Part shown: positions 18-5,385 of the stretch, piece after piece | Layout: each line of letters opens with the position of its first letter | Numbering within the stretch: position 1 is the first letter of the stretch | Origin: Flavobacteriaceae bacterium | GTDB taxonomy: Bacteria; Bacteroidota; Bacteroidia; Flavobacteriales; Flavobacteriaceae | Reading direction: 5' to 3' | Assembly: GCA_013001285.1 (NCBI GenBank) | Contig: JABDMU010000039.1 | Coordinates: 1 to 36,286, forward strand | Length of the DNA stretch: 36,286 nucleotides | The notes under the pieces: model-generated | Database searches by the model: none | Seen by the model: the letters and a program-made list of their open reading frames with translations, nothing else | What the model was told of the DNA's origin: nothing | Position numbers and translations under genes: made by a program

Positions 18-96
18 GTCATTCTGAGCAGAGCGAAGAATCTCTGGTAATTACAAGAATAAAGATTCTTCAGTCGTTTTACTCCTTCAGAATGAC
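18..96. repeat. Nested palindromic repeat, type A, copy 1
   Basis: A 79-base element with a perfect 10-base outer stem (GTCATTCTGA at 18-27 pairs with TCAGAATGAC at 87-96) and a perfect inner stem (AAGAATCT with AGATTCTT). It would fold as a hairpin within a hairpin. A second copy of exactly the same length lies at 315-393. Confidence 0.85.
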
Positions 97-105
97 AAGA
101 GAATT

Positions 106-210
106 GTCATTCCTATCCTGAGACTGCGGGCGAAGTACCGAGAACTCAACGGGACAAGGACATCTCGATACAATTTTACTCATCACATTCGCAAAATCAC
201 TCGATGTGAC
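106..210. repeat. Nested palindromic repeat, type B, copy 1
   Basis: Opens with GTCA and closes with TGAC. The inner stem that is perfect in the third copy (GTATCGAGA with TCTCGATAC) carries one substitution here (GTACCGAGA). Related copies are at 403-507 and 1568-1681. Confidence 0.75.
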
Positions 211-220
211 GGTTGGATTC

Positions 221-306
221 GTCATTCTGAGCAGAGCGAAGAATCTAATTGATTAAACCGAAAACATTCAGAAAGACTGCCGCGGCCTTACAGGCCTCGC
301 AGTGAC
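221..306. repeat. Chimeric repeat: left end type A, right end type C
   Basis: Bases 221-246 match the left arm of the type A element (GTCATTCTGAGCAGAGCG and onward). The right arm (GACTGCCGCGGCCTTACAGG and onward to CTCGCAGTGAC) matches the right arm of type C at 1811-1898. The two halves cannot pair well with each other, which suggests recombination between related elements. Confidence 0.75.
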
Positions 307-314
307 GTTAATAT

Positions 315-393
315 GTCATTCTGAGCAGAGCGAAGAATCTCTCAGCAAAAGAAGAATAAAGATTCTTCAGTCGTTTTACTCCTTCAGAATGAC
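315..393. repeat. Nested palindromic repeat, type A, copy 2
   Basis: Same 79-base length and same outer and inner stems as 18-96. The loop differs, while both stems are kept intact. Confidence 0.85.
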
Positions 394-402
394 ACGAGAA
401 TT

Positions 403-507
403 GTCATTCCTATCCTGAGACTGCGGGTGAAGTATCGAGAACTCAACGGGACAAGGACATCTTGATACAATTTGGCTCATTGCATTCGTAATATCACTCG
501 ATGTGAC
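403..507. repeat. Nested palindromic repeat, type B, copy 2
   Basis: Copy of 106-210 at the 297-base offset. The left inner arm is GTATCGAGA, and the right arm is TCTTGATAC with one change. It ends CACTCGATGTGAC like the other copies. Confidence 0.75.
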
Positions 508-596
508 TCTAGGAATAGCAAAAAAACAAATCCTATAGTCTTGAAATTTAGGAGAATAAAGATAAATCTGTATTTTAGTTGAAAATTAAAAACATC

Positions 597-782
597 ATGA
601 GCTTCAATAAAAAATTGGGGACTGCCAATCTCTTAATGCTTATCCTCTGCGCGATCATTATCACGCTTGCCGAATATTTGTTCCTTTCGGGTGATCAATT
701 GCATGGTATCTTTATAGGAATGTGGGCACCTATGTTAATCGGATTGATGATCTTCTTTAAACTCGTCGACAATGGAAAGTAA
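597..782 (+). CDS. Small two-helix membrane protein, unknown function
   Basis: A 61-residue protein starting MSFNKKLGTANLLM. Residues about 8-30 form one hydrophobic segment and about 37-56 a second, with a short polar loop (SGDQLHG) between. I chose the ATG at 597; a TTG at 579 would add six residues but is a weaker start. The 3' end overlaps the start of the next tiny gene by 11 bases, suggesting coupled translation. I do not recognise the family. It could be a subunit or modulator of a membrane complex, but nothing here shows which. No shadow of a larger gene explains the frame. Confidence 0.6.
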   Translation: MSFNKKLGTANLLMLILCAIIITLAEYLFLSGDQLHGIFIGMWAPMLIGLMIFFKLVDNGK

Positions 783-879
783 TAGCATCGTTTTTTGGTT
801 TTCTATAGTTGTTACGGTATGTGTCGTCATCTGGGCCATCTATGTCATACGTGTGTATGATAATATTGGAAGGAAATAG
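772..879 (+). CDS. 35-residue single-helix membrane protein
   Basis: Encodes 35 residues beginning MESNSIVFWF, with one strongly hydrophobic helix (about residues 6-27) and a basic C-terminus (ending NIGRK). The ATG lies inside the last codons of the upstream small gene, an overlap of 11 bases in another frame, so the two look like a translationally coupled pair. The family is not recognised. Support is the overlap, the clean membrane-helix composition and the lack of any competing gene on either strand. Confidence 0.5.
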   Translation: MESNSIVFWFSIVVTVCVVIWAIYVIRVYDNIGRK

Positions 880-974
880 GTCAACGCCTAAGATCATCGG
901 ATAAATTGGCAACATAATGGTAAAATATACGTTAAACTGAAATATTTCCTAATTTAGTAGAAACGATTCATCTT

Positions 975-1565
975 ATGAAATCCTTTTCCCTCACCCTCCT
1001 GTTCATCTGTTCTATGAGTATAAGTGTATTTGCTCAAGACGATGCCCTCAGCGGCACTGCCGAAGCCTTGTTCCGATCGGCTAACAGCACCCTCACCAAT
1101 GCCGAAAAAAATCAGATCGCTACACTTAGCGGTTTCGAACTTACCGACAACGAAGAGCTATGGTATCGTACTACATATGAAAAGGAAGCGAATATCCCAT
1201 TTAATGTCCGTTTGTATACGCTAGACCTCACCAATGATGGGGTTGAAGAAATTGGGATTATCTATGGTCCGCAAACAGGATCGGGAAAAAAAGGCCTGGC
1301 CTCACTCCTCTTTGTAAAAAATCCTGAGGGGCAATTTCAATTAAGTATTGATACACCTGGGGAATTCTTTTTTATCAATTTGAATAATATGGTTTTTCCT
1401 GATGTTCTGGTCAAAAGTGAGAGCTTCGAATTACCGATCTATCGTTGGGATGGCGCTCAGTATAATGAGCATAAATTACTGGCTCGTAAAAAACTGAAAC
1501 GCCTTAATACGACCTCAATGTCGCAGGCTAGTAATAGGTATGTCGCAAATTTGATGCGGGAGTAA
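975..1565 (+). CDS. Exported protein of unknown function
   Basis: A 196-residue protein with a clear Sec signal peptide (MKSFSLTLLFICSMSISVFA, cleavage before QDD). It is therefore periplasmic or outer-surface. Around residues 84-92 is a DLTNDGVEE stretch that resembles the Asp-rich calcium-binding loops of FG-GAP/VCBS-type repeats (DxNxDGxxE), but only one such loop is visible, so this is not a propeller by itself. The rest is predicted beta-rich, and a YRWDG motif near residue 156 also recalls beta-propeller blades. No catalytic motif is recognised. It stands alone between the small membrane genes and a repeat block. Confidence 0.8.
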   Translation: MKSFSLTLLFICSMSISVFAQDDALSGTAEALFRSANSTLTNAEKNQIATLSGFELTDNEELWYRTTYEKEANIPFNVRLYTLDLTNDGVEEIGIIYGPQTGSGKKGLASLLFVKNPEGQFQLSIDTPGEFFFINLNNMVFPDVLVKSESFELPIYRWDGAQYNEHKLLARKKLKRLNTTSMSQASNRYVANLMRE

Positions 1566-1567
1566 TG

Positions 1568-1681
1568 GCGTCAGTTCGAGTTGAGCCCAAGGACTTGGGT
1601 GAAGTATCGAGAACTCAACGGGACAAGGACATCTCGATACAATTTGGCTCATTGCATTCGCAAAATCACTCGATGTGACGC
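1568..1681. repeat. Nested palindromic repeat, type B, copy 3
   Basis: Starts three bases after the exported-protein stop. The outer stem GCGTCA (1568-1573) pairs with TGACGC (1676-1681), extended after a mismatch by TCGAGT with ACTCGA. The inner stem GTATCGAGA with TCTCGATAC is perfect. Its position right after a stop codon would let it act as a transcription terminator or mRNA end protector. Confidence 0.8.
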
Positions 1682-1689
1682 TTGTATTC

Positions 1690-1773
1690 GTCATTCCGAA
1701 TGCGGTGAAGGAATCTATTTGATTACGTGAAACATTCTTAAGACTGCCGCGGCCTTGCAGGCCTCGCAGTGAC
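1690..1773. repeat. Chimeric repeat with type C right end
   Basis: The left arm is a GTCATTCCGAATGCGGTGAA variant. The right arm is the type C arm ending CTCGCAGTGAC. It is the second chimera of this kind (compare 221-306). Part of it is copied again at 2017-2074, where nine bases (one of two nearby GCAG-bounded units) are missing. Confidence 0.7.
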
Positions 1774-1810
1774 GATCGGTTTGTCGTTCCGAACGAAATG
1801 ATGGTCTGTT

Positions 1811-1898
1811 GTCATTGCGAGAAGCGTAGTAACGCGGCAATCTCAGCGCAGGTACATAATGAGAAAGACTGCCGCGGCCTTGCAGGCCTCGCAGTGAC
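1811..1898. repeat. Nested palindromic repeat, type C, copy 1
   Basis: An 88-base element. Outer stem GTCATTGCGAG (1811-1821) pairs with CTCGCAGTGAC (1888-1898) with one wobble. Inner stem CGCGGCAAT (1833-1841) pairs with ACTGCCGCG (1868-1876) with one mismatch. It has the same nested layout as types A and B but a different sequence. Confidence 0.85.
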
Positions 1899-1916
1899 GT
1901 ATCCATAAAAAGCAAG

Positions 1917-1937
1917 ATGCTGGATCAAGTCCAGCAT
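1917..1937. repeat. Short perfect hairpin repeat
   Basis: ATGCTGGA pairs perfectly with TCCAGCAT around the loop TCAAG, followed by GAC. It resembles a short palindrome type common between genes in several bacterial phyla. Confidence 0.75.
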
Positions 1938-1972
1938 GACAAACTAATACTCATACGGTTCCTTGAACTGTC

Positions 1973-1993
1973 ACCCTGAACTTGATTCAGGGT
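1973..1993. repeat. Short perfect hairpin repeat
   Basis: ACCCTGAA pairs perfectly with TTCAGGGT around the loop CTTGA. The loop is the reverse complement of the loop at 1925-1929, so the two hairpins are of the same design in opposite orientation. Confidence 0.75.
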
Positions 1994-2109
1994 CTTTACA
2001 ATCGTAGGAAAGAAAGGAATCTATTTGATAATACGGGAAACATTCTTAAGACTGCCGCGGCCTTGCAGTGACGATCGGTTTGTCGTTCCGAACGAAATGA
2101 TGGTCTGTT

Positions 2110-2197
2110 GTCATTGCGAGAAGCGTAGCGACGCGGCAATCTCAACGCAGGTACATAATGAGAAAGACTGCCGCGGCCTTGCAGGCCTCGCAGTGAC
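2110..2197. repeat. Nested palindromic repeat, type C, copy 2
   Basis: Same 88-base length and same nested stems as 1811-1898. It ends 17 bases beyond the stop codon of the minus-strand ccsBA gene, so it lies in that gene's 3' untranslated region. Confidence 0.85.
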
Positions 2198-2214: not shown

Positions 2215-5200
2215 CTACTTCTTATAAAATTTCTTGTACTTTCGGTATGAAAAGAATCCTAATAAGGCGATCACCACAGCCGCAATGGCAATGATATTCA
2301 CACTCGCGATCTGTTGCCCGGACTGATACGAATGCAATCCTGAGAGATAAAAATTCACGCCGAAATAGGTGAAGATGATAAACGAAAAACACCAAATGCT
2401 ACTCAAATTAAACCACCAGCGTCCGCGTAGGCCCGGGATCAATCGCATGTGAATCACAAAAGCATACATCATAATAGATATCAATGCCCAGGTTTCTTTT
2501 GGGTCCCAGCCCCAATAGCGTCCCCAACTTTCATTGGCCCACATACCGCCTAAAAAGTTACCTATGGTGAGCATGACCAGTCCAACGGTCAAAGCCATTT
2601 CATTCACTGTTGTCAGCTCCTTAATATTGAGATCCATTTTTGCTTTATTCTTCGAATTGGTCAGGATCATCAGGATCAAAACTACCGTTCCCAGGATCAT
2701 CCCTAAGGCAAATGGTCCGTAACTACCAACAATCACAGCAACGTGTATCATCAACCAATAGGAATTCAAAACAGGCTGCAAATTGGCAATAGATGGATCC
2801 ATCCAATTCCAATGGGCGATCATCAGGATCATCGCAACTACAAAAGCCGTAGAAGCCATGGTTAATGCGCTTTTCCTTCCAAAGAGCAATCCGAATAGCA
2901 TGGTGGCCCAAGCCACATAGATCATCGATTCATAAGCATCAGACCATGGTGCATGTCCTGAAATATACCAGCGTGCAATTAAACCAGCTGTATGCAAAAC
3001 AAATAGGCCGACAATGATGACCTGAAAGAACTTAACAACGCCATTCACATATTTGCTTCTATCATTAAAGATCTGAATGATTAGCATGATGAACATCAAG
3101 GTTCCAGCATACATATACCAACTGAAGAGCTTTTTGAAAATATCATATTTGTTATAAAGGATCTCGGCATTGACCTTCTCGTCGCTGAGCATGACCTCTG
3201 AACCCAACTTCTCCTGAGTTCTTTTTATCGCATCTAATAATTTATCGGCTTCAGAATAGTCGCCCGAGCTTTTGGCATTGTTCAAATTAATGAGATAGGC
3301 ATTGAATCCTGTATTTATAAAATTGCCATACAGCGAATCTTCCAATTTATAATTCCCTTCTCGATATTCAATTGGCGACACCCAAGTGTTATTATCATCA
3401 TTAGGAATTGGGAACAGCTTTAGTGAGCGTCCTTCAATGGTATTGTATAATAAATTAACGCGCTGGTCTGTTTCTTTAAATTCTTTCTGTATAGCTGTTG
3501 GCACCTGTGTTTTATAAGCGTCCTCTAAATAAGGTCCGAGTTTATAACTGCCATTCCCAGTAAAGAAATCGGCTAGGGTTGCATATTTTCTGGACTTATC
3601 TATGCCGATAAGATTTCGAATGGTATCGGCTTTTTTAGCTTTTAAATATATGATCGGAACGTTGTACCAGAGGATCGGACTTTCTTGCATTGACAAAAAG
3701 ATCTGATCGGCGTTAAAGCCTTCGTAACTATCGTATTTACTGAGCTTCCGAAGCAACTCGGATGCATAGGTATTAATAGGTTTCATGCGCCCATCAAAAT
3801 CCTGAATCACCAGCCTGCCTAGTTTGGCTGCTTCAGCTTCCGAAGTGATGTGTACCGATAAAATGGAATCCACTTGCTGCTTCGACGGTAAGTTTCGCGA
3901 ATGACTTTCGGTTTGTGCCGTTAAGCCTAAGCTAAACAACAGTACGACCGCTGTTAGTGCAGCCTTTTTCGCCTTTACCTTTTTCAGATAATTTCTGAGA
4001 TCATCAAAACGTGTGTTCTTTGCAAATAGGATCGCCATCAATCCGAAATACAATAAGAAATAGCCTAAATAGGTAATTCGAGTTCCCCAGGCATCGTGGT
4101 TGACCGAAAGGATGGTCCCCTTTTCATCGGGATCAAAACTGGCTTGAAAAAATTTGTAGCCACCATGATTTAAGATGTTGTTCATATAGATATGGAAATC
4201 GAAGTCACCAGCTTCCTCGTCGAATACCGTGACCTTACTTTCATAAGACGAATAGGAGTTTTCAGTACCCGGATAACGTTCGGCGATAAAATCGTTGAGC
4301 TTAATACTGAAGGGCAATTCAAGCACTTTCGAACCGTATTTAAAAGCGAAATCCAAGCCACCGATCTTGACCTGCTTAAAGGCATTGTTGCTACCCTTTC
4401 CACCTAAAAGTTTCACTTCTTCAAATGCATCACCAGCACGCACATGTAAGATGACGGCATCTTCATCGCTTTTTAGCAACTCCGATTTCTTAACAATATC
4501 GAATTTACCTTTTACAACGGGTTTGGGAAAAACCAAGGTTTGATTTCCAATCACATAACGCGACCGTAAAGCCAAGGGCTGAATGCTATCTTTGACCAAT
4601 ATCCCTTGTTGTCCGGTTGCCATGGTCATATATTCCCCTTGAAATGGCGATTCAATGGTCAATGTGCTATCGGTAAAGCTGATGTTTACGGCACCTTCGG
4701 TGTATTTGTTTAACGCGTATAAAACGTTGTGAATGTTCTCGATCTGACCTTCCTTTAGGAAGTGATTATGTGGAGCTCCCGATCCTGCTTCAACGATCTT
4801 TAAATAGTTGTCGCCTTCTTCATCTGGAACAATATCTTCTTCCGCGCCAGCGATAAAATCAACAAGCTCTATAGAAATAGGGATCTTATTATAATCAGTT
4901 CGCACCTTAAAATGATTCTCCATACGAGGCGAGAAATCGACCTCATCAAAACGCACACGGCGTTGGACCTTACCATCGATCTCAAAAGAGCCATCGATAT
5001 AAGTGGTGAGATAAGTTTTATCAGAAAGGAATGTCTTTTCGGTTGCGCCTTCACGAATGGCCATGATACCTTCGTAGCCAATATAGCGTGTGACAAAAGC
5101 ACCCAGAAGAATAAAAATAAAGGCCAGATGCAAGGTCAGTGTGGCCCACTTCTCTTTTTTATACAATCGGAATCTAAAAATATTTCCAACGAAATTGACC

Positions 5201-5385
5201 ACGAACATGCCCATAATGGCTTCAAACCACCAGGCGTTATAGATCATATTTCGTGTGTAAGGGGTTGGCGAGGTATCCTGTCCAGCATCTAAAAAAGTAC
5301 CGATGATCATGGCTGCCGCAAAGGCAATGAACAAAAGTGCAGTGAGTCTGGTTGAAAAAAGGATGTTGGCAATTTTCTTTTGCAT
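2215..5385 (-). CDS. ccsBA: Cytochrome c synthase CcsBA (fused ResB/CcsB and CcsA), system II
   Basis: A 1056-residue membrane protein that exports haem and attaches it to apocytochrome c CxxCH motifs on the periplasmic side. The N-terminal ResB part (about 1-460) begins with several membrane helices; the histidine in TLHLAF (about residue 86) fits the conserved membrane haem ligand. After a helix near 475 comes a periplasmic domain, then the CcsA part (about 735-1056) with the tryptophan-rich haem-binding motif WGRYWGWDPKETW near 945-960 and histidines in SGHAPW (about 811), LMIHVA (about 879) and VIHMRL. The full-length fusion is the form known from Bacteroidota and Campylobacterota. It starts at a single ATG 40 bases after a TAACTTTG promoter element. 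The stop codon lies against a type C palindromic repeat. Partner thiol-reduction genes are not in the window. Confidence 0.95.
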   Translation of the reverse strand: MQKKIANILFSTRLTALLFIAFAAAMIIGTFLDAGQDTSPTPYTRNMIYNAWWFEAIMGMFVVNFVGNIFRFRLYKKEKWATLTLHLAFIFILLGAFVTRYIGYEGIMAIREGATEKTFLSDKTYLTTYIDGSFEIDGKVQRRVRFDEVDFSPRMENHFKVRTDYNKIPISIELVDFIAGAEEDIVPDEEGDNYLKIVEAGSGAPHNHFLKEGQIENIHNVLYALNKYTEGAVNISFTDSTLTIESPFQGEYMTMATGQQGILVKDSIQPLALRSRYVIGNQTLVFPKPVVKGKFDIVKKSELLKSDEDAVILHVRAGDAFEEVKLLGGKGSNNAFKQVKIGGLDFAFKYGSKVLELPFSIKLNDFIAERYPGTENSYSSYESKVTVFDEEAGDFDFHIYMNNILNHGGYKFFQASFDPDEKGTILSVNHDAWGTRITYLGYFLLYFGLMAILFAKNTRFDDLRNYLKKVKAKKAALTAVVLLFSLGLTAQTESHSRNLPSKQQVDSILSVHITSEAEAAKLGRLVIQDFDGRMKPINTYASELLRKLSKYDSYEGFNADQIFLSMQESPILWYNVPIIYLKAKKADTIRNLIGIDKSRKYATLADFFTGNGSYKLGPYLEDAYKTQVPTAIQKEFKETDQRVNLLYNTIEGRSLKLFPIPNDDNNTWVSPIEYREGNYKLEDSLYGNFINTGFNAYLINLNNAKSSGDYSEADKLLDAIKRTQEKLGSEVMLSDEKVNAEILYNKYDIFKKLFSWYMYAGTLMFIMLIIQIFNDRSKYVNGVVKFFQVIIVGLFVLHTAGLIARWYISGHAPWSDAYESMIYVAWATMLFGLLFGRKSALTMASTAFVVAMILMIAHWNWMDPSIANLQPVLNSYWLMIHVAVIVGSYGPFALGMILGTVVLILMILTNSKNKAKMDLNIKELTTVNEMALTVGLVMLTIGNFLGGMWANESWGRYWGWDPKETWALISIMMYAFVIHMRLIPGLRGRWWFNLSSIWCFSFIIFTYFGVNFYLSGLHSYQSGQQIASVNIIAIAAVVIALLGFFSYRKYKKFYKK

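Follow-up and report, generated by a model that had tools for sequence, protein, structure and literature searches.

Repetitive extragenic palindromes (REPs) tagged with CGTC are widespread short bacterial repeats. Di Nocera, De Gregorio and Rocco (2013, PMC3733652), who defined them, describe units with a CGTC or TGTC tag, an AT-starting stem of 8–9 bp, a loop of 4–5 nt and a tail such as CCA, which are intergenic, lie predominantly in head-to-head pairs and occur in five phyla including the Bacteroidetes. The same paper equates Neisseria CGTC-1 with dRS3, reports these REPs as unassociated with transposase genes, and ends on the apparent absence of a dedicated transposase. REPs of the GTAG type are held to be moved by REP-associated tyrosine transposases (RAYTs, or TnpA-REP), as described in PMC3733652 and in passages of PMC6006769. 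The stretch of DNA analyzed here (the window) is 36,286 nt long and is contig C16 (JABDMU010000039.1) of a 2.88-Mb Flavobacteriaceae draft genome in 88 contigs (GCA_013001285.1), and its first base falls within a cluster of repeats. This cluster is probably a low-copy group of CGTC/TGTC-tagged REP units belonging to a mobile cassette system in which the units are coupled to a GIY-YIG nuclease gene, the nuclease taking, by analogy, the place that RAYTs hold in the GTAG-REP systems.

The basic unit of the cluster is half of the element described in the original prediction, which had read the repeats as nested double palindromes of three types (A, B and C). Each unit carries a [C/T]GTC tag next to a short stem, which encloses an inner hairpin and is followed by a short tail, and the nested double palindrome is two such units placed head to head with their tags outward. 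The stem starts with A..T, often followed by GA on both sides, and units of types A and C follow the pattern [C/T]GTC-A-N4-GA-(inner hairpin)-N4'-T-CTC or similar, with the GA repeated on the 3' side in type A and in three of the four type B units. A strict finder that requires GTC, A plus four bases, and the perfect reverse complement 9–60 nt further on, followed by C, recovered 19 units in positions 1–2250 and 2 in the other 34 kb, compared with a mean of 4.0 and a maximum of 10 in dinucleotide shuffles of the whole window (n = 30). Eighteen of the 19 carry CGTC or TGTC and the remaining one AGTC. By tag, pairing and arrangement the units fit the CGTC-tagged REP superfamily, to which they can be provisionally assigned.

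The GTDB species genomes were scanned with a pattern that demands the tag, the inner core and one stem pair (the first) but leaves the other four stem pairs free. At least 119 stretches matched, which by record title, among the 80 listed, come from Bacteroidota, Chloroflexi, Acidobacteria, Nitrospirae, Planctomycetes, Omnitrophota, Firmicutes, Verrucomicrobia and Proteobacteria; within the Flavobacteriaceae the stem-free pattern is sparse (10 of 149 genomes). Among the matches, at least 158 in number, all four free pairs form in 133 and three or more in 155, and 16 of 28 distinct arm combinations form all four pairs compared with 5.0 when partners are shuffled. The stems are thus compensated, as they also are within the window (ATTGC/GCAAT vs ACTGC/GCAGT). 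The original prediction had named uncompensated stem changes and confinement to this locus as the findings that would speak against it; the scan shows compensation and a wide spread, though the elements are few in their own genome, where a covariance model detects 12 units, every one of them on C16 or C64; a looser match of type A on C33 and two units with 8-bp stems on C84 come in addition.

In these GTDB loci, units flank only 11 of the open reading frames (ORFs) of at least 70 aa on both sides at a distance of up to 250 bp, and two of the 11, from different records, encode GIY-YIG nucleases of ~100 aa. A phmmer search over the ORFs of the loci gave three such proteins, all bracketed by units, the third being that of the window's own genome. 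Its gene (G000:C64:80165-80461, minus strand) lies between units of the window's type C, and the nearest intact units beside it differ from the type-C right unit by 0 and 1 mismatches. A complete cassette consists of at least one unit (often head-to-head pairs), the GIY-YIG gene and at least one further unit; the own genome has one, on C64. PF01541 is the sole domain reported in three proteins scanned, with E values of 1.9e-17 (own copy), 1.3e-11 and 2.6e-16, and the single NCBIfam match, below threshold, is to a group I intron endonuclease. In 95 proteins, numbered as in the own copy, Tyr-18, Gly-20, Arg-28, His-32 and Lys-69 are invariant and Glu-65 is kept in 99%. The protein can be placed on these grounds in the GIY-YIG nuclease superfamily with its catalytic arginine and glutamate retained, and cleavage activity is predicted.

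With the own protein as query, matches were found in 102 of 149 Flavobacteriaceae genomes, with up to 8 matches per genome. The flanks were scored for 90 family loci (the 30 best and 60 further matches listed, roughly by E value), selected by protein search alone and containing 98 GIY-YIG genes, of which 96 are flanked by 150 bp or more in both directions, 93 of these being distinct; short flanks excluded 2 of 98 genes here and 4 of 73 in the set from other phyla described below. Strict units lie within 300 bp on both sides of 51 of the 93 genes, on one side of 14 and on neither side of 28. Dinucleotide-shuffled flanks gave units on both sides in 2 of 1920 cases and any unit in 115 of 1920, background windows of 300 bp gave 13 of 749, and the 3' flank of ccsBA in other genomes gave 1 of 29, the other 28 being without a strict unit. 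Of the unmatched family genes that were read, some have tag-less or altered hairpins and some none. At one locus (L278, genome G018), one full and two truncated GIY-YIG copies stand in a row with units between them, a tandem array of decaying cassettes.

For the other phyla, the 50 genomes behind the GTDB scan loci were searched with PF01541, giving 30 loci and 40 further regions. Small GIY-YIG genes in this set have units on both sides in 25 of 69 cases, on one side in 13 and on neither in 31. Divided at an HMM cut-off of 1e-24, which was chosen after seeing the list, close homologues account for all of the two-sided cases (25 of 45, with 11 one-sided and 9 without), and the distant small GIY-YIG genes have none (0 of 24, with 2 one-sided and 22 without). 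Inspection by eye of six of the nine close homologues that the finder left unmatched revealed variant units flanking four of them on both sides and two (L315 and L341) on a single side. UvrC, which contains the same domain, served as a control and has units on both sides in 0 and on one side in 2 of 15 ORFs, a number counted by eye from the N termini of 20 loci; a motif script found 7 of these ORFs (6 without units and 1 one-sided). Two of the distant, UPF0213-like genes (L320 and L323) have variant units (GTCATGCTGAGG.. and CTCATCCTGAGC..) on both sides by eye, and from these the partnership may be wider than the close GIY-YIG subfamily.

Named plasmid records show the same arrangement. PLSDB contains 33 records with a match, and in the 12 examined the strict finder places units on both sides in 8, on one side in 2 and on neither in 2. 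In Azospirillum lipoferum 4B the cassette occupies the space between sufB and sufC, and CGTCATCCCCGCGAAGGCGGGGATCCA is present at either side of it. CGTC units with stems of at least 8 bp lie on both sides in Shinella, Rhizobium CIAT894 and Sphingobium (two, near-identical), and records L408 and L412 are near-identical. In S. meliloti such a unit lies upstream and imperfect variants lie downstream; the downstream strict match in L404 is a chance match, at a place where imperfect variants lie. Novosphingobium pNL2 has a CGTCG variant on both sides that the finder missed, L405 is two-sided by eye, and Planktothrix has A-like units on both sides. Spirosoma and Photobacterium have units on one side only, and Rhizobium K1/93 has none. 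The GIY-YIG gene of N. gonorrhoeae is flanked by CGTCATTCCCGCGCAGGCGGGAATC, which we take to be the dRS3 repeat. The annotated neighbors of the Planktothrix cassette (L407, P. agardhii plasmid p1) are an MmeI-type restriction gene on one side and the DISARM gene drmA on the other. Two of the PLSDB records labeled as plasmids, L404 and L406, are chromosome-sized (3.7 and 2.2 Mb). The window DNA itself has no match among the plasmids.

The units flanking GIY-YIG genes can be compared directly with the published repeats. In 317 such units, a few of which are counted twice from the overlapping loci L242 and L273, the base before GTC is T in 192, C in 93, G in 17 and A in 15, GTCA itself being demanded by the finder. 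Stems of 8–9 bp are present in 96 of the 317 (8 bp in 95, 9 bp in 1), as in the window units 1917–1940 and 1970–1993, and 202 have 5 bp before the first mismatch, as in types A, B and C. Within 150 bp in the 119 GTDB loci, neighboring units are predominantly head to head (+- 51, -+ 15, ++ 7, -- 3); the preference is less marked in arrays near GIY-YIG genes, counted within 60 bp (+- 73, -+ 57, ++ 20, -- 19). The bracketing of GIY-YIG genes contradicts the published statement that these REPs have no dedicated enzyme, not the membership of the repeats. The linkage between gene and units is strong, and the GIY-YIG nuclease is the best candidate for the missing enzyme of the CGTC REPs.

Gene and units also correspond in lineage and in number. 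For 53 of 61 Flavobacteriaceae genes, the unit class is the same as that of the nearest protein neighbor (a mean of 21.2 and a maximum of 38 in 5000 shuffles); the stem/loop-parity classes are mechanical, and the hand classes were set after seeing the data. One unit type reaches at least 3 copies in 22 of the 149 genomes, and all 22 of 22 have a GIY-YIG match (any match to the own protein), compared with 102 of the 149 genomes as a whole (p=1.1e-4); where the unit type reaches 10 copies or more, the figure is 12 of 12 (p=0.0085). The 47 genomes with no GIY-YIG match hold at most 2 copies of the counted unit type.

Cassettes are present or absent at the same place in related replicons. Genes sufB and sufC are 617 bp apart in A. 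lipoferum 4B, which has the cassette, and 91, 87, 129 and 55 bp apart in four other Azospirillum genomes that do not contain it, the flanks next to the cassette being diverged. At the fnrL–response regulator locus of Sphingobium the cassette is present in 7 plasmids and absent in 4. Of the three gene-free sites that were read, two (TomTYG64 and TomTYG74) hold one symmetric palindrome and the third none; the left part of the palindrome equals the left unit and its right part the right unit of TomMM7A, one copy having two base differences. The pattern resembles a gain or a loss through recombination inside units, in either direction. Gene-free Sphingobium sites L419 and L420 contain a single double-tagged palindrome made from the outer parts of two units, which is what a loss at a short repeat within them would be expected to leave. 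Among the matches listed for the Rhizobium CIAT894 site there is no clean empty site, and the ccsBA neighbors of the window locus, being too divergent (at most 79% protein identity), gave no empty-site junction.

The likeliest of the alternatives to the cassette reading treats the GIY-YIG gene as a homing-type parasite: existing REP units would serve it as targets and landing sites, and the units themselves would spread by other means. GIY-YIG nucleases include classic homing endonucleases (passages of PMC1564403), REPs are reported as targets of insertion sequences (PMC1525189), and a symmetric palindrome at the gene-free sites of TomTYG64 and TomTYG74 could be viewed as such a target. The gene, however, comes with full units on both sides and not with the halves of a split target, unit copy number follows the presence of GIY-YIG genes as given above, and no other mobiliser was found, making this explanation unlikely.

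A standalone GIY-YIG protein could also be a housekeeping Slx1-like nuclease that processes REP cruciforms, the repeats being inert or used by the host. In passages of a 2006 phylogenomic study (PMC1564403), bacterial standalone proteins are grouped with Slx1 and predicted to act in DNA repair, and the best PDB profile matches of our protein are the UPF0213 proteins 1zg2 and 1ywl. Such a role accords poorly with the patchy presence of the gene and its multiple copies per genome, with broken and tandem copies, with cassettes present or absent between close plasmids, and with a gene that is linked to units and not to one fixed locus; we consider it quite improbable.

Within the window, the units form the following series. 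Head-to-head pairs of type A occupy 18–96 (units 18–41 + and 65–96 -) and 315–393 (units 315–338 + and 362–393 -), both detected by the strict finder and by folding, and head-to-head pairs of type C occupy 1811–1898 (units 1811–1841 + and 1868–1898 -) and 2110–2197 (units 2110–2140 + and 2167–2197 -), both detected by the finder, folding and the covariance model. The lengths (79 for A, 88 for C) and coordinates are as originally described, and folding as single-stranded DNA compared with dinucleotide shuffles gives z values of -3.3, -3.2, -2.3 and -2.8 for the type A and C copies. For type B the description held in part. The copy given as 1568–1681 lies at 1570–1679 (units 1570–1615 + and 1629–1679 -; z -4.0) and is the sole B copy with a complementary outer stem, whereas the outer ends of 106–210 and 403–507 have only the tag bases GTCA/TGAC in common, and the folding of these two copies is unremarkable (z -1.15 and +0.78). 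In the former, the right unit 160–210 (-, arm ACATC) has a left partner, 106–159, with no complementary arm; in the latter, the right unit 457–507 (-) is degenerate, with an AGTC tag and AA replacing GA. The statement that stem sequences differ entirely between types was too strong, as the left units of A and C have GTCATT..GA..AATCT in common.

Several units of the window had gone unremarked. Mixed head-to-head pairs combine an A-type unit 221–244 (+) with a C-type unit 276–306 (-) at 221–306 (strict finder), a GTCATTCCGA.. unit 1690–1714 (+) with a C-type unit 1743–1773 (-) at 1690–1773, and, spaced more loosely at 1970–2072, the 8-bp-stem unit TGTCACCCTGAACTTGATTCAGGGT (1970–1993, +) with the shortened C-type unit CGTCACTGCAAGGCCGCGGCAGT that it faces (2051–2072, -; strict finder). 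A second 8-bp-stem unit, TGTCATGCTGGACTTGATCCAGCAT, is located at 1917–1940 (-) and has the stem/loop format given for CGTC families in the main text of PMC3733652. The single tagged hairpin is more likely than the nested pair to be the functional unit, as suggested by the mixed pairs, the B copies with a non-complementary left arm and the 8-bp-stem units; the nested double palindrome was set aside as the unit of function, given the mixed pairs and the two B copies with no outer stem. Positions 1–217 and 298–514 form one local duplication (91%, spacing 297), and positions 1760–1899 and 2059–2198 another (97%, spacing 299). Since the A and C copies lie in these duplications, their fixed lengths are not independent evidence. 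The two duplications have near-equal spacing (297 and 299 bp) and different content. The contig starts inside the first of them, and the assembly break there was probably caused by the repeats.

The arrangement of the window is pertinent to the earlier suggestion that the elements are RNA hairpins. In that explanation they would act mainly as transcription terminators or mRNA stabilizers and spread by recombination alone. The 1568–2197 cluster lies between convergent ORFs, the 2110–2197 pair being located between 975–1565 (+) and 2215–5385 (-), and published REPs are mostly downstream of genes (PMC3733652). Such a function is compatible with the cassette reading; as the main account of the elements it leaves unexplained why one nuclease family is bracketed across phyla, and it is very unlikely.

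The earlier suggestion that these are REP- or BIME-like units moved by an enzyme encoded elsewhere agrees with their fit to the CGTC-tagged REPs and with a unit-bracketed nuclease on another contig. The REP-associated tyrosine transposase proposed for that role is the least probable mover, past or present: the own genome has no PF01797 match at E<=0.001, none of the Y1/RAYT-like places examined in the family is bracketed by units, and multi-copy genomes frequently lack the domain. PF01797 matches occur in 58 of the 149 family genomes, and in 12 of the 22 genomes in which one unit type reaches 3 copies or more (p=0.083), leaving 10 of 22 with no match. The strong PF01797 loci, namely the 23 of the best 30 judged long enough, have units on both sides in 0 and on one side in 1; the recognized RAYT-like ORFs (17 of 18 motif finds in 32 regions, the IS200-type ORF L070 being left out) have strict units on both sides in 0 of 17; and a full rescoring of all Y1/RAYT-like places in the same fetched regions, with 630-bp flanks, gave 0 of 37 with units on both sides, 4 one-sided and 33 without. 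RAYT/IS200 elements were rejected as mobilisers after these PF01797 searches and the reading and scoring of RAYT-like flanks. Of nine RAYT loci inspected, several have a hairpin of another kind, CCGCTACCGCACGA..TCGTGTGGTA or near variants. Loci L040, L043, L045, L047–L051 and L054 carry Group-5-like RAYT genes, several of them flanked by such CCGCTACCGCACGA..TCGTGTGGTA-like hairpins, which are perhaps the 'atypical structures' of subclass 2.6 mentioned in passages of PMC6006769.

A number of observations weigh against the cassette reading. No strict unit accompanies 28 of the 93 family genes or, in the other phyla, 9 of the 45 close homologues; some of the 28 (L233, L241, L245 and L248) show only untagged hairpins or none, and L410, a PLSDB record, has no unit. 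The 50 genomes from other phyla were themselves selected for holding the unit, and the match between lineage and unit class is weak there (27 of 34, shuffled mean 23.3, maximum 31). A match between lineage and unit could be explained by the gene and its flanks travelling together. The co-occurrence of GIY-YIG genes with unit copy number counts any match to the own protein and not the matching lineage, PF01797 is also nominally enriched at 10 or more copies (8 of 12, p=0.042), and of the four one-sided Y1-like places one, L061, has a genuine unit. Units of the own genome lie mainly on two contigs. Type B (106–210, 403–507 and 1570–1679; arms AGTTC and ACATC; long inner parts) recurs on C64 (L072 13028-13136), its arms are absent among the 317 units flanking GIY-YIG genes, and type B units may have another partner than GIY-YIG. 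Binding, recognition, cleavage, movement, the path of transposition and the nuclease, not a host system, as the driver are inferred.

In the proposed mechanism, each unit would form a hairpin in single-stranded or extruded DNA with its [C/T]GTC tag unpaired at the foot. The minimal GIY-YIG nuclease, close to UPF0213/Slx1-like proteins, would recognize the hairpin together with the tag and nick at or near the tag at the hairpin foot, and a unit, a pair or the entire cassette would then be copied by repair or replication, either to a new site or inside an array. The cluster in the window would represent non-autonomous units accompanying a low-copy cassette. More broadly, it is reasonably likely that Slx1-like standalone GIY-YIG proteins are largely the dedicated enzymes of a second, RAYT-independent REP superfamily across many phyla, which would nick tagged hairpins to spread the cassette and its non-autonomous pairs, with Neisseria dRS3 and the alphaproteobacterial CGTC REPs included and the Sphingobium cassette and palindrome interconverting by recombination inside units.

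Among the results listed by full-text searches of the open-access literature (subscription papers and preprints being outside it), no report links GIY-YIG proteins to these repeats. The terms 'GIY' and 'homing' are absent from the main text of PMC3733652, 'GIY' is absent from the 2025 RepRanger paper, and the letters of the units as a text query gave only papers on other subjects, judged by title and opening of the abstract. One nuclease family is bracketed by CGTC REPs of its own from Flavobacteria to Neisseria, rhizobia and a cyanobacterium, and a ~100-aa protein with a ~30-nt hairpin would now suffice to put the question of the missing enzyme to a direct test. If the reading is correct, many 'repair' GIY-YIG genes would be reassigned to mobile DNA, and there would be a second, chemically unrelated route to making REPs.

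Comparison with the known systems shows likenesses and differences on each side. The window units resemble the published CGTC superfamily in the CGTC/TGTC tag, the AT-starting stem, the CCA-like tail, the head-to-head pairs and the intergenic position, and carriers named in the main text of PMC3733652 (A. lipoferum, S. meliloti and Neisseria) have such units next to their GIY-YIG genes; the window's types A, B and C differ in their 5-bp stem, the mostly GA/GA internal step and the variable inner hairpin. The protein is similar to the standalone Slx1-like/UPF0213 nucleases in length (~100 aa) and single domain, with profile matches to 1zg2 (E 9.2e-12) and 1ywl (E 4.2e-7), whereas the more distant small GIY-YIG genes of the same genomes are rarely flanked by strict units. 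With homing endonucleases of the I-TevI type it has in common the catalytic fold and, if our reading holds, a mobile lifestyle; the profile match to I-TevI (1mk0) is weak (E 0.16), only PF01541 and no NUMOD was found in the three proteins scanned, and hairpin repeats bracket the gene. The closest parallel in organization is the REPtron (REP plus RAYT/TnpA-REP), in which an enzyme gene is likewise bracketed by tagged hairpins, the unit type is matched to the enzyme lineage, and unit pairs are dispersed as REPINs or BIMEs. The REPtron, however, relies on an HUH tyrosine fold and a GTAG/GTGG tag, whereas the system described here pairs a GIY-YIG fold with mainly [C/T]GTC tags, and its movement is inferred.

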